45,881 bases of DNA from Komagataeibacter xylinus. GTDB taxonomy: Bacteria; Pseudomonadota; Alphaproteobacteria; Acetobacterales; Acetobacteraceae. Where the stretch lies: assembly GCF_004302915.1 (NCBI RefSeq), contig NZ_QQBI01000025.1:1-45881 (forward strand). Direction: 5' to 3'. A model generated the notes under the pieces. That model saw only the letters and a list, made by a program, of their open reading frames with translations. It searched no databases and was not told the origin of the DNA. Position numbers and translations under genes: made by a program. Position 1 is the first letter of the stretch. Every line of letters starts with the position of its first letter. This document shows, piece after piece, positions 38,317 through 44,915 of this stretch.

Positions 38317-38505
38317 TCATCCTTTCCTTCGGCCCCATTGAACGAGGGCTGACAGCAGCCCATAGCCCAGCAGGAAACCGAACATCATCATGAGCGCGGC
38401 AGGCCATCTGCCTGTCACCTCACATCCGGCAAGACCGCAAACGGTGCCCAGCAGGGCGGCGCGGCCACAGTCGGCAATCGATGCCATTACGCGATACCGC
38501 ATCAT
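38317..38505 (-). CDS. Small membrane protein
   Basis: 62 residues with two hydrophobic segments (CGRAALLGTVCGLAGC, about 13-28; ALMMMFGFLLGYGLLSALVQ, about 37-56) and a basic end WGRRKG. Its start overlaps the DnaB stop. The function is unknown; an exclusion or membrane anchor role for replication is possible. Confidence 0.5.
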   Translation of the reverse strand: MMRYRVMASIADCGRAALLGTVCGLAGCEVTGRWPAALMMMFGFLLGYGLLSALVQWGRRKG

Positions 38506-40037
38506 CAGAACTCCGGCGCCGTAATGGTCCAGGCCGGACCGTTTTCGCTCTCATCCACATCGCGGAACCACGTGGTTTCGTCCTGGAACTGGAGCGCGCA
38601 GCCGCCGGTGGCGCCGTGGCGGTTCTTGGCAATGAACACGCTGGCCTTGCCCTTGCTGTCGCGCGTGCGCTGGATCAGGCTGGCGCAACGGGCGCTGTAG
38701 GCCTCATCCGTCTCGCGGTCATTGCGGGGGATGTTGCCGTCCCCCAGCTGCTTGTTCAGGTAATAATGGTCGCGGTGCAGGAACAGCACGGTGGCTGCAT
38801 CCTGCTCCAGCGATCCACTGTCACGCAGGTCGGTCAGTTCCGGCCGCTTGTCCTCGCGCTTGGCGCTCTCGCGTGAGAGCTGCGCCAGGGCGAGCACCGG
38901 GATCTCCAGTTCACCGGCAAGGTTTTTCAGGTCCTTGCTGATTTCCGTCATCTTGTGCGTCAGGTTGAACGAGCGGGAATCAGTCGAGGCACTGAGCAGC
39001 CCGACATAATCGACCACGATCAGGTTCAGCCCCTGTTTCGAGCGCTTCATGGCGCGGGCCTGCGTGCGCAGCTCCGCCACCGTGATGCCCGAGCGGTGAT
39101 CGATGCGCAGCGGCAGGCTGGCGGCGGCGTGCTCGCCTTCCTCCAGTTCACGCCACTGATAGTCGGCCAGTGGCTCGCGCTGGGTGGTGTCGGCATGGGG
39201 CGGAATGTCGTACCGCCGGCCGGTAAAGACCGACAGCGTGGAAAGACCGGCCCACGCGGCACCGGCACGCGCGCCCAGCTGGGCCGCGCGCATCTCGCCT
39301 GACCAGAACAGCACCGAATTGCCCGCCGCTGCGGAACGCACGGCAATGCCGAGCCCCAGCGCGGTCTTGCCCATGGCGGGCCGCGCGCCAAGCAGCGTCA
39401 GATCACCGGCATGCAGCCCGCCAGTCATGCGATCGAGCGCCTTGTAACCCCACGTGATGCCCGCAAGCCCGTCACCACGCTCGGCCGCAGCCCGCGCATT
39501 GAGGATGGCCTGCCCGATGGCATCGCCAATCTGCACCGTGGGCTGGATCTCCACGCTGCCGGACGCAATGCGCGTGATGCGGCTTTCCAGCATTTCCATC
39601 AATGCGCTGTCAGGCCGGTCGCCCGGCATGCAGCACAGATCGGCCGTCTCGGCGCATACATCAAACAGATTGCGCCGGAACCACGCGCTGCGGATGGCAA
39701 GGGCATAATCGGCCGCATTGGTAATGCCGACCATGCAGCCCAGCAGCGTGGTGAACACCTTGGCTGCCGTCATGTCGATGGACAGCAGCGGGTCATTTTC
39801 AAACCGGGGGCGCAGCGTGACGGGATCAGCCACGTTGCCCGCCCAGATCAGCGTGCGCATGGCGGCAAAAATCGCCCCATGCAGCGGCACATAGAAATGC
39901 TCGGGCTGGAGGATTTCCTCCACGCGCCCGAACGCTTTGTTATTGGTCAGGATCGCACCCAGCAGCGCCTGCTCGGCCGGGACGTTGGTGGGGCGCTCGC
40001 GCATGGCCGAGCCGAACAGGGGAGCCGGGCCGTTCAT
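38505..40037 (-). CDS. dnaB: Replicative DNA helicase, DnaB family
   Basis: 510 residues. The N-terminal domain (NVPAEQALLGAILTNNKAF, about 18-36) mediates hexamer and primase contacts. The RecA-like domain has Walker A with K224 (GARPAMGKTA), Walker B LIVVDYVGLLS (about 335), and ELEIPVLALAQLSRESAKRE with the Arg finger region. It is complete and intact, so the phage brings its own fork helicase. It sits in an ATGA-coupled early operon. Confidence 0.95.
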   Translation of the reverse strand: MNGPAPLFGSAMRERPTNVPAEQALLGAILTNNKAFGRVEEILQPEHFYVPLHGAIFAAMRTLIWAGNVADPVTLRPRFENDPLLSIDMTAAKVFTTLLGCMVGITNAADYALAIRSAWFRRNLFDVCAETADLCCMPGDRPDSALMEMLESRITRIASGSVEIQPTVQIGDAIGQAILNARAAAERGDGLAGITWGYKALDRMTGGLHAGDLTLLGARPAMGKTALGLGIAVRSAAAGNSVLFWSGEMRAAQLGARAGAAWAGLSTLSVFTGRRYDIPPHADTTQREPLADYQWRELEEGEHAAASLPLRIDHRSGITVAELRTQARAMKRSKQGLNLIVVDYVGLLSASTDSRSFNLTHKMTEISKDLKNLAGELEIPVLALAQLSRESAKREDKRPELTDLRDSGSLEQDAATVLFLHRDHYYLNKQLGDGNIPRNDRETDEAYSARCASLIQRTRDSKGKASVFIAKNRHGATGGCALQFQDETTWFRDVDESENGPAWTITAPEF

Positions 40038-40279
40038 GGCTGTTCATCCGTCTTGGCCGGAACAGGGAAGAATGGCTGGTACATGGTGACCGTGACCGGA
40101 CGGTAGCCCAGCGCCAGCGGCACCGATGTGCCAAGCCCCTTGTGCCCATTCACCGCGTTGGCCAGCGTGCGCATGTTCAGGCCGGTTTTATTGGCCAGTT
40201 TCTGCACGCCGCCTGCCTCGCGCACCCGCGCGTTCAGCACGACATACATTTCGGTTGTGGTCAGCATGGGGCCGCTCAT
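40034..40279 (-). CDS. Small HTH protein
   Basis: 81 residues. AGGVQKLANKTGLNMRTLAN (about 22-41) looks like an XRE/CII-type HTH, followed by AVNGHKGLGTSVPLALGYRP. It probably regulates early genes or replication. It overlaps the helicase gene by 4 bp. Confidence 0.65.
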   Translation of the reverse strand: MSGPMLTTTEMYVVLNARVREAGGVQKLANKTGLNMRTLANAVNGHKGLGTSVPLALGYRPVTVTMYQPFFPVPAKTDEQP

Positions 40280-40521
40280 GACGAACGCCTCCCGCTACGG
40301 AAGGAATACGTCGCGCGCGCCCGGCCCAGATAGGTGCGGCCAGAGGACGTGATGGACACACTGACCTGATTGCTCACGCCCAGCACCTGCATGCGCGAGC
40401 GCACCGCGCGGGCCGAGACGCCCATCTTCCGCGCCATGGTGGAAACCGAAACACCCATGCCCGCCAGCTGGCGCAGCATGGGGTCGAGCCTTTCCCAGTC
40501 AATCGATATGGCTGGCATCAT
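40276..40521 (-). CDS. Small HTH protein, second copy type
   Basis: 81 residues. IDWERLDPMLRQLAGMGVSV then STMARKMGVSARAVRSRMQV (about 28-47) forms a clear HTH, with a basic, Ser/Arg-rich C-terminus. Similar GcrA-like HTH genes occur in this early operon (see 41395-41739). The role is unknown. Confidence 0.6.
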   Translation of the reverse strand: MMPAISIDWERLDPMLRQLAGMGVSVSTMARKMGVSARAVRSRMQVLGVSNQVSVSITSSGRTYLGRARATYSFRSGRRSS

Positions 40522-40564: not shown

Positions 40565-40798
40565 TCAGTGAAACAGGTTCCGGCGCAGCCGAATCTTGAG
40601 GCGCGCAATGCGCTCAAGCCGTTCGGTCCTGCGCTCGAGAATGGCGGACTCCCGCAGTGCCCAGGCATCGAGCGTGCCAACGAGCAGGCGGAAAAACTTC
40701 AATACGATCCACGCGCGCCCACGGCGCATGACCAGCACCAGGCACACGGGCACGCCGAAAACCGACGCGCTGATCCAGACGTAAAAGGTGTGCGTCAC
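40565..40798 (-). CDS. Small membrane protein
   Basis: 77 residues. One N-terminal membrane helix (FYVWISASVFGVPVCLVLVM, about 5-24), then a basic amphipathic tail (LERRTERLERIARLKIRLRR). Coupled to the upstream gene by a 4-bp overlap. The function is not recognised. Confidence 0.55.
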   Translation of the reverse strand: MTHTFYVWISASVFGVPVCLVLVMRRGRAWIVLKFFRLLVGTLDAWALRESAILERRTERLERIARLKIRLRRNLFH

Positions 40799-41109
40799 AG
40801 CAGATCACGCAGTGCGGCCTGCCGCTGCCGGATGTTTTCAAGCCGCTGGCGGATCAGCGCATCTTCATGCCGCAGGCGGCTTTCCTCCTGCGCCAGGCGG
40901 GCTGCGCCGAGCGCGCGCACGGCCTGCCATTCGGCTAGGGTTACGGCACGCACCTCATGGTGCCAACACGCGCGCACACGGCGCACGGTAAAGCCGAGCG
41001 CACGCGCCACCTCAGCAAAGGCACCAGCCAGCCCGAGCCGGTCGCGGCACGCGCTGACCTCGGCACTGACAAGGTTCTGGAACTCATCGCGCAGCGCATC
41101 GGCGCACAT
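40795..41109 (-). CDS. Helical phage protein with possible HTH
   Basis: 104 residues from MCADALRDEFQNLVSAEV. A central segment FAEVARALGFTVRRVRACWH (about 31-50) looks like an HTH, and the rest is a long charged helix (ARLAQEESRLRHEDALIRQR). The start at 41109 is preferred because AGGAGG lies about 11 bp upstream. The same frame is open to 41379 through the palindrome array, but that extension has no SD. This may be the DNA-binding partner of the array. Confidence 0.6.
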   Translation of the reverse strand: MCADALRDEFQNLVSAEVSACRDRLGLAGAFAEVARALGFTVRRVRACWHHEVRAVTLAEWQAVRALGAARLAQEESRLRHEDALIRQRLENIRQRQAALRDLL

Positions 41110-41141
41110 CTTAGATCTGGCCTCCTGATCCGGACTGGATG

Positions 41142-41248
41142 CACCCGCGCGCGCGGGTGAAATGGGCAAAACGTCCGAGCGCTCGGACAAATCGGCCAAA
41201 ATACCCGCGCGCTCGGACAAAAACGGCAAAATACCCGACACCTCGGAC
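41142..41248. repeat. Array of four palindromes at exact 30-bp spacing
   Basis: Centres lie at 41150.5, 41180.5, 41210.5 and 41240.5. The first is a perfect 18-bp palindrome (CACCCGCGCGCGCGGGTG, 41142-41159), the second a perfect 16-bp palindrome (GTCCGAGCGCTCGGAC, 41173-41188). The third (41204-41218) and fourth (41234-41248) are imperfect versions. Three of the spacers share an AAA..GGC.AAAA pattern. It could be a replication iteron, a partition site or a multi-site operator of the early operon. Confidence 0.8.
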
Positions 41249-41255
41249 GCCCTCC

Positions 41256-41364
41256 CTGACATCTTCATGGATGTCAGAGGGGCGTTTCCCTCGGGTAACG
41301 AGCAAGGCAGGGAAGGGCAGGCCGCCAGCGCGCTGGACACGCATGGAAAGCTGGCGGCCTGCCC
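41256..41364. promoter_or_regulatory. Two strong hairpins between array and upstream gene
   Basis: Hairpin 1: CTGACATC (41256-41263) with its complement (41270-41277), 6-nt loop. Hairpin 2: a perfect 15-bp stem GGGCAGGCCGCCAGC (41315-41329) with its complement (41350-41364), 20-nt loop. Neither is followed by a T-run, so they are not obvious terminators. Together with the array they fill a 285-bp non-coding block. Confidence 0.65.
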
Positions 41365-41394
41365 ACCCTGAATGGACATGACAAAGCACAGGCA

Positions 41395-41739
41395 TCACTC
41401 AGCCACCCTGCGGCACGGCGCGCAGCGGAACAGGAAGCGGCTTTCAGCCACAAACGGCGCCCGGCAGCGAGAGCAGGAGCGCTTGATGCGCTCTTTCTTC
41501 ACCTTCGGCTCATATTCCGTGCCGAGGGCATCGGTGATCAGGTTCGAGGCCACATGGTTCGGCACGCGCCCCTTGCGCCCGCATTGACGCAGATGCGTGA
41601 GGCCAAGAAACCCCACGCGAAAATTGACGGCCGAATAGGTCAGCCCCAGCCTGCGCGCGATCTCGGCATAGGCCAGCCCCGCAACCAGCAGCGGCACCAG
41701 TTCGGCCCGCGCCGCATCCCAATCAACCTTCGCGCCCAT
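41395..41739 (-). CDS. HTH protein with C-terminal zinc ribbon (GcrA-like)
   Basis: 114 residues. The N-terminal HTH (ELVPLLVAGLAYAEIARRLG, then LTYSAVNFRVGFLGLTHLRQ, about 13-52) resembles GcrA-type DNA-binding domains. The C-terminal CSRC ... CAPC motif (about 88-109) is a zinc ribbon. It is probably an early or delayed-early transcription regulator. It is flanked upstream by nested palindromes and downstream by the 30-bp array. Confidence 0.7.
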   Translation of the reverse strand: MGAKVDWDAARAELVPLLVAGLAYAEIARRLGLTYSAVNFRVGFLGLTHLRQCGRKGRVPNHVASNLITDALGTEYEPKVKKERIKRSCSRCRAPFVAESRFLFRCAPCRRVAE

Positions 41740-41776
41740 CAGGTATTCACCGATGAATACCTGCCGTTACCGGCAG
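41740..41776. promoter_or_regulatory. Two adjacent palindromes upstream of the zinc-ribbon HTH gene
   Basis: CAGGTATTCA (41740-41749) with its perfect complement (41754-41763) around CCGA, followed by CTGCCG/CGGCAG (41761-41766, 41771-41776). They lie directly at the start codon of the - strand gene and in the divergent region towards 41870. Likely operator or mRNA 5' hairpins. Confidence 0.55.
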
Positions 41777-41869
41777 GCGCGAAATATCCGCCCTTACGGG
41801 TCAGCCCATTGTCAGGCCGACCCGTGCGGACCACCATGGAGTCACCACAACCAACCATGGAGGATTCAG

Positions 41870-44139: not shown

Positions 44140-44205
44140 TATGGCTAGGAATGTAAAGCCAAAATGGATGTATTAATTTCCTTATGAATTTAGCCAAAAT
44201 GGCCA
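44133..44205. promoter_or_regulatory. Operator cluster between repressor and Cro-like gene
   Basis: Three 15-bp sites of the form TAGCCxxxxTGGCTA: 44133-44147 (perfect dyad), 44156-44170 and 44191-44205 (less symmetric). The third lies at the repressor start, which favours translation from 44208 over 44184. They are expected to bind the repressor and Cro-like protein. Confidence 0.75.
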
Positions 44206-44207
44206 TC

Positions 44208-44915
44208 ATGAAGGCTGAACCAACCCCTACACGTGTCCGTGAAATTAAAGAGGCGCGCGGGCTAACGTCTGCAGAGCTATCTAGACGATCCGGCATTCTT
44301 CCACCGACGCTCAGCAAAATCGAATTAGGGCAGCGGAGTGTTACGAAAAATTCGGCCCCACGCCTTGCAGAGGCACTTGGAGTTAATATCGCGGACTTAT
44401 ATGCGGACGTCGGGGCGCCTATAGTGCAAATGGAAGACACGGAGCCCGCGCCTTCCGATGACACTATCGGTCGAAAAATAGTATCTATTGAGTCGCCGAG
44501 AGTCGCACTTCCTTTGCATGTCCCTGTGTATGGTACTGCGGCCTGCAGTTCGGGGGATGGAGCGTTTCTATTGTTATCAGGGGAAGTGGTCGACCGGGCT
44601 CCTCTAGCACCGGGCATCCAGCATCGTAAGGAAGTTTATGGTCTTTACATCGAGGGCGATAGTATGGAGCCTTGGAAGAGGCCCGGACAACTCGTCTACG
44701 TTGACCCAGTCAGGGCGCCGTCAAAACGCGACCGTGTGGTTGTTGTCATCCGAGATGACAAGCGTGGAATAAATCATGCTTATATTAAAGAGTATGTGAA
44801 AAAGACTGATGATCATCTTGTGGTTATTCAGTATAATCCACCCAAAACCATCGAATGGTCTATATCTGACGTCGTCTCTTGCCACCGTATCCTAGAGCCA
44901 GAAGATATATTCTAG
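44208..44915 (+). CDS. CI-like prophage repressor (XRE HTH plus S24/LexA domain)
   Basis: 235 residues from MKAEPTPTRVREI; an in-frame ATG at 44184 would add 8 residues but covers an operator. The HTH spans about 8-60 (RGLTSAELSRRSGILPPTLS). The S24 peptidase domain has the nucleophile Ser in IEGDSMEP (about 153) and a Lys in APSKRDRVVVV (about 174). The self-cleavage region is likely near YGTAACSSG. It maintains lysogeny and should be inactivated by RecA-stimulated autocleavage, so the prophage is probably SOS-inducible. Confidence 0.9.
   Translation: MKAEPTPTRVREIKEARGLTSAELSRRSGILPPTLSKIELGQRSVTKNSAPRLAEALGVNIADLYADVGAPIVQMEDTEPAPSDDTIGRKIVSIESPRVALPLHVPVYGTAACSSGDGAFLLLSGEVVDRAPLAPGIQHRKEVYGLYIEGDSMEPWKRPGQLVYVDPVRAPSKRDRVVVVIRDDKRGINHAYIKEYVKKTDDHLVVIQYNPPKTIEWSISDVVSCHRILEPEDIF

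Follow-up and report, generated by a model that had tools for sequence, protein, structure and literature searches.

We examined an array of four phased palindromes at the start region of a gene for a 104-residue helix-turn-helix (HTH) protein in a contig of Komagataeibacter xylinus (NZ_QQBI01000025.1; its whole analysed length of 45,881 nucleotides is called the window below). The array lies just 5' of this gene, or falls within its first codons should translation begin further upstream. In a Komagataeibacter prophage, this locus stands at the head of the replication module. Judged from sequence, the array is probably an autogenous operator of the adjacent HTH regulator. The observations behind this reading are the array itself, its conserved position, a constant unit combined with a variable period, selection that is not codon-like and a correlation between the half-sites and the HTH domain.

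Geometry of the array

The sense strand of the array and its flanking genes is the minus strand (Table 1). The four palindromic units are centred at 41150.5, 41180.5, 41210.5 and 41240.5, a step of exactly 30 base pairs (bp). An earlier note on this DNA had described this arrangement, and its coordinates stand, as does its statement that the 18-bp and 16-bp units are both perfect palindromes. We scanned the window at periods 18-40 with a four-unit score based on 8 Watson-Crick pairs per 16-bp unit. The top-scoring array is this locus (25 of 32 pairs, period 30, start 41143), and a score of 25 was reached in none of 150 dinucleotide shuffles, whose maximum over all periods had a mean of 21.9 and a largest value of 24. 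No clear further copy of the site was found in the window: a degenerate site with up to 2 mismatches gave 12 matches against 7.1 expected, a count reached by 4 of 100 shuffles, and 3 of the 12 matches are the array units themselves.

A scan of the array region returned no promoter match at the start region. Between 40700 and 41900 there are 4 terminator-like sites where 1.5 would be expected; one lies at the array. We dropped the idea that the units are terminators: ATTTT or GTTTT follows units in the window, but L141 and L151 lack these.

Related loci keep the layout at a variable period

A DNA search with the region matched somewhere in 23 of 100 genomes (the window's own included), and three besides the window matched over all 946 bases. 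Protein alignment matches were found in 29 of 397 genomes of the family and 8 of 385 genomes of the class, both counts including the window's own genome. Phased arrays were found at the equivalent place in Acetobacteraceae, mostly with a period other than 30. The exact 30-bp spacing, which the earlier note suggested to be conserved, is a variant of the window's group that is shared across the start region by L007, L008 and L100. Period 21 occurs in Acetobacter, Gluconobacter and other loci and is that of most array-bearing relatives; period 22 occurs in L171, L172, L175 and L176. The Ameyamaea locus (L021) has steps of 30 and 31, and L121 a step of 21, then 20. Both main periods are found in the window's own genus (30 in genomes G000, G003, G014 and G018; 21 in G004, G008 and G012).

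The arrays comprise two to four phased units, and palindromic sites at the HTH regulator's own gene are kept across homologues. The 16-bp unit is constant and the spacer varies (4, 5, 6, 14 or 15), which argues that the unit is the putative binding site, with the caveat that the scans and tables of the relatives were themselves built on 16-bp units. The earlier note also placed bound dimers on roughly one face of the helix. Since 30 bp corresponds to 2.86 turns, such alignment is only approximate, but the periods 21, 22, 30 and 31 are all close to a whole number of helical turns.

We scanned 41 leaders of 190 bases each blind, with a two-unit score at period 21 and at period 30 and 200 shuffles per leader. 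Of these, 18 reached P <= 0.05 in one of the two tests, with about 4 expected, and 23 failed; close relatives make up many of the 18, and in L021 the best match lies off its array. Apart from L157, L159 and L160, which by eye have single or partial repeats, 5 of 7 new loci in a class-wide search had no array (L162 is a second locus of one genome). A phage collection gave no match to a nucleotide search with 40795-41750 or to tblastn with two homologues. The array pattern matched 42 stretches in viral contigs, and most contexts inspected were lone, chance-like matches with no array. In L174, upstream of the ATG at 1501, the second spacer has one T too many, which disrupts the long frame, and the gene is frameshifted again later, so this is decay or sequence error.

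Half-site letters and the HTH domain

Distant homologues carry other letters at the same place with period 21, namely TGCCAAGGGCTTGGCA (L137), GTTCGAGGTGTCGAAC (L141) and TTGCGTGATGACGCAA followed by CTGCGCGACCGCGCAG (L151); the half-site letters TGCCAAG, GTTCGAG and TTGCGTG occur among such homologues in the same layout. The palindromes thus persist in relatives whose letters differ, in support of the earlier suggestion that symmetry is kept more than sequence. In a table of 34 loci, partly chosen by eye, half-site identity is 72% within one array versus 60% between arrays.

Distances between half-sites and distances between recognition helices are correlated over 24 lineages (r 0.69). With the rest of the core controlled for, the partial r is 0.47 (p 0.0004), and the reverse partial is 0.22 (p 0.03). 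In a sliding window the correlation peaks at starts 21-26 and 40-43 and is low towards the C-terminal helix. These comparisons give moderate support to the HTH domain as the likely partner of the half-sites.

As an operator, the array would be bound by homodimers of the 104-residue protein, one per 16-bp palindrome, and neighbouring dimers would sit about two or three helical turns apart, allowing cooperation. By obstructing initiation at the start region, or transcription that passes through it, bound protein would repress its own gene and perhaps also the replication genes that follow. Phage lineages may have drifted to their own half-sites along with the HTH domain, as immunity regions do. 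An autogenous operator array is ordinary in principle; what is unusual is a layout kept while the letters drift. The earlier note named both adjacent HTH genes as natural binders. The product of the gene at 40795 fits this role, and the array belongs to the start region of that one gene.

Two results qualify the operator reading. Random column sets equal the recognition helix in 2.2% of cases, but its correlation is matched by further windows within the HTH domain. By-eye inspection and the blind scan of leaders revealed no clear array in at least 12 homologues.

Start codons, overlapping frames and selection

A Shine-Dalgarno-like AGGAGG stands 11 bases before the ATG at 41109, so the 194-residue open reading frame (ORF) of the earlier note (40795-41379) is probably over-extended. 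The in-frame GTG at 41241 inside unit 1 is a possible alternative start giving 148 residues, and many relatives have ATG or GTG at the centre of unit 1 after a Shine-Dalgarno-like stretch and a second in-frame ATG beyond the array. A 94-residue ORF in another frame also runs through the array (Table 1); its protein varies among relatives and it is possibly a coupling frame. In 29 of 38 loci this other frame ends close to the second ATG (with TAAGATG in the window and ATGTCTGA or ATGTCGGGTAG in other loci), a count for which the nearest stop was taken by script and in which the start peptides MSD and MSGS bring a stop themselves. The stop/start overlap looks like translational coupling; the ATG at 41109 is therefore preferred, either start being possible.

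The other frame through the array makes some translation across it likely. One alternative is therefore a coding repeat, in which the spacing of the units would stem from a repeated peptide (GISPKRA, SERAGILADL) in the overlapping frame or in an N-terminal extension. The HTH frame stays open across the array in 38 of 38 loci, the periods are mostly multiples of three, and G-I-S/L near the start is alike in close relatives. The substitutions, however, make a coding repeat highly improbable. Between the window and L007, 21 of 106 array positions differ, distributed as 10, 9 and 2 over the codon positions of the HTH frame, versus 67 of 312 positions in the HTH gene, distributed as 13, 10 and 44. 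The third-position share differs between array and gene with Fisher p values of 7e-6 (window versus L007) and 4e-6 (window versus L008). When the other two frames are read, 9 and 10 of the 21 changes fall on third positions, so that no frame reaches the two-thirds share of the gene. Selection on the array is not codon-like.

Period 22 (L171, L172, L175, L176) and the 31 step of L021 also break a peptide repeat, and distant peptides are unlike (FEVSNKV, TQLSCAT) though the palindromes stay. Identity among nine loci with 21-bp period is 91.6% in the array, a value inflated by choosing loci with common unit-1 letters, 69.5% in HTH coding DNA and 47.9% in the 50 bases upstream. According to the earlier note, a coding repeat would appear as relatives that keep the reading frame and lose the palindromes or their spacing. 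We found the palindromes kept while the peptides, and in some groups the codon phase, change, which is not how a coding repeat behaves.

Replication origin or RNA element

The array gene heads the replication module. A DnaB-like helicase lies downstream in the window and, further downstream (E 2.6e-69) in a similar gene order, in L009. In L169 the array gene is followed by a DUF1376 protein, which we take to be replication-associated; the 306-residue protein downstream in L173 has no Pfam match. The palindromes might then be initiator iterons at the initiator's own gene, with the 104-residue protein helping to load the phage DnaB-like helicase, an explanation we consider unlikely. According to an excerpt of PMC7466680, lambdoid iterons lie midway along gene O as imperfect inverted repeats of 19 bp with an adjoining AT-rich region, and an excerpt of PMC3985674 gives four such repeats for lambda. 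No clear AT-rich unwinding region was found here in 21 loci: in bins of 50 bases covering -150 to +99 relative to the second ATG, the AT content never exceeds 56% (means per bin, 30 to 42%); the iteron origin offered by the earlier note is thus left without a clear AT-rich element beside the array. At a distance of 300 bases or more upstream, bins reach 70% AT in L012 and 64% in L014. The protein is also small, and the constant element is the 16-bp unit, with the variable spacer noted above. GC skew, being confounded by gene strand, was not used as origin evidence.

Alternatively, the palindromes could form tandem mRNA hairpins, the first with the start codon in its loop, that control translation and are possibly bound by the same HTH protein. 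The array does sit at a Shine-Dalgarno-like stretch and a start codon, which in many relatives is at the centre of unit 1. The leader (41100-41394, minus strand) folds far better than shuffles (z -7.1, 0/200), although units 2 and 4 are then paired with each other. A hairpin should clearly favour G-U, yet the mismatches in 40 unique units are 21 G-T versus 14 A-C (p 0.31). In L008, unit 3 (GCCCGCGCGCGCGGGC) has two pairs changed on both sides relative to the window (T-A to C-G, A-T to C-G). The remaining 6 changed arm pairs are all one-sided: two go from T-G to C-G, one to G-T and three to A-C, the last speaking against a hairpin. Rfam gave no match at gathering in the window and, below it, two microRNA models alone (E 0.04 and 0.94, far under the gathering scores). 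An RNA element by itself is quite unlikely; we favour a DNA role and keep an RNA role, or both, in view.

There is a small chance that the palindromes act twice, as a DNA operator for phased HTH dimers and as mRNA hairpins holding the start codon, each lineage with its private code. The HTH protein Aca2 binds repeats in DNA as well as in RNA. If the dual role were true, one array would govern the leading gene of the replication module at the level of transcription and of translation alike.

Prophage setting

The window is a contig of a 3.63-Mb genome, and close copies of the locus occur in two Komagataeibacter xylinus records. On the minus strand the order is the upstream HTH gene, the array, the 104-residue HTH gene, a 77-residue ORF, an 81-residue HTH gene, an 81-residue ORF and the DnaB-like helicase. 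Three small HTH genes (40276-40521, 40795-41109 and 41395-41739) thus cluster at the head of the module, the first and the last with weak GcrA-like matches below cut-off.

Further inverted repeats lie upstream. A 24-bp palindrome (41740-41777, minus strand) directly 5' of the upstream HTH start codon (41739) is kept in 7 of 7 sequences checked, and a second one overlapping it is clear in all of them except L006. A hairpin at 41315-41364 (minus strand) has a 15-bp perfect stem and a 20-base loop. In L007, 8 of its 15 pairs differ from the window, all 8 being two-sided Watson-Crick changes, and the TCATGCGTGTCCAGCGC-like loop letters are largely kept; L005, L006, L100 and L018 have 1 to 2 one-sided pair differences and L004 is identical. 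By eye, L009, L122, L126, L141 and L172 have an inverted repeat 5' of unit 1 and its Shine-Dalgarno-like stretch, whose stem changes and whose loop is similar (CTCGACAA, CTCAACA and the like).

Table 1. Features of the array locus and its surroundings in the window.
Feature	Position	Strand	Description
Palindrome unit 1	41233..41248	-	Imperfect, sense GTCCGAGGTGTCGGGT; alternative GTG start codon (41239-41241) in centre
Palindrome unit 2	41203..41218	-	Imperfect, sense GTCCGAGCGCGCGGGT
Palindrome unit 3	41173..41188	-	Perfect, 16 bp, GTCCGAGCGCTCGGAC
Palindrome unit 4	41142..41159	-	Perfect, 18 bp, CACCCGCGCGCGCGGGTG
Inverted repeat just 5' of unit 1	41251..41282	-	Arms at 41251-41263 and at 41270-41282; shares bases with the Shine-Dalgarno-like stretch preceding unit 1
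HTH gene adjoining array	40795..41109	-	104 residues; HTH domain followed by a single helix of 46 residues; ATG at 41109 preferred as start
Shine-Dalgarno-like AGGAGG	41121..41126	-	11 bases before ATG at 41109; read directly
Other-frame ORF through array	41111..41395	-	94 residues; start TGATG overlaps stop of 41395 gene; stop TAAGATG touches 41109 start
Upstream small HTH gene	41395..41739	-	Weak GcrA and sigma70 region 4-like matches, below Pfam cut-offs
DnaB-like replicative helicase, downstream	38505..40037	-	Family library matches
Repressor with HTH and S24 domains	44184-44915	+	Family library matches

Comparison with known systems

The operator reading would supply a predicted target for each array-bearing member of a group of uncharacterised Acetobacteraceae phage HTH regulators, with several half-site types in one layout. 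The arrays would also offer a natural experiment on the joint drift of protein and operator specificity, and they point to a control element where the replication module begins in prophages of cellulose- and vinegar-making bacteria. Among the literature matches listed (titles and abstract openings) no such array is described, which is no proof of its absence from print. In the main text of PMC8566455 and PMC9379143, on phages of acetic acid bacteria, the words palindrom, operator, inverted repeat and helix-turn-helix are absent.

The 104-residue protein matches no family in PHROGs or NCBIfam, has one MerR match below cut-off in Pfam, one weak match in PADLOC (SngC, E 0.018) and weak fold neighbours; the Aca model content of these four libraries was unchecked, so the family matches do not speak on Aca membership. 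The anti-CRISPR-associated Aca autorepressors have as their sites one or two inverted repeats, placed in the promoter region, whereas the array here has two to four phased units at the start region, without a promoter match. Lambda CII is a short HTH protein whose gene lies between cro and the replication genes; its sites overlap its own start region (the PRE promoter), and it binds direct repeats of TTGC at one promoter. The locus resembles CII in having a short HTH protein gene with sites across its own start region and differs in that these are palindrome arrays with no promoter match. As with lambda O and its iterons, in so far as the excerpted sources describe them, several inverted repeats lie at the gene of a phage DNA-binding protein in a replication module; unlike there, we see no clear AT-rich element, the protein is small, the array is at the 5' end of the gene instead of the middle, and the unit is 16 and not 19 bp. 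Finally, compared with restriction-modification C proteins such as C.Esp1396I, the array has more units and another spacing.
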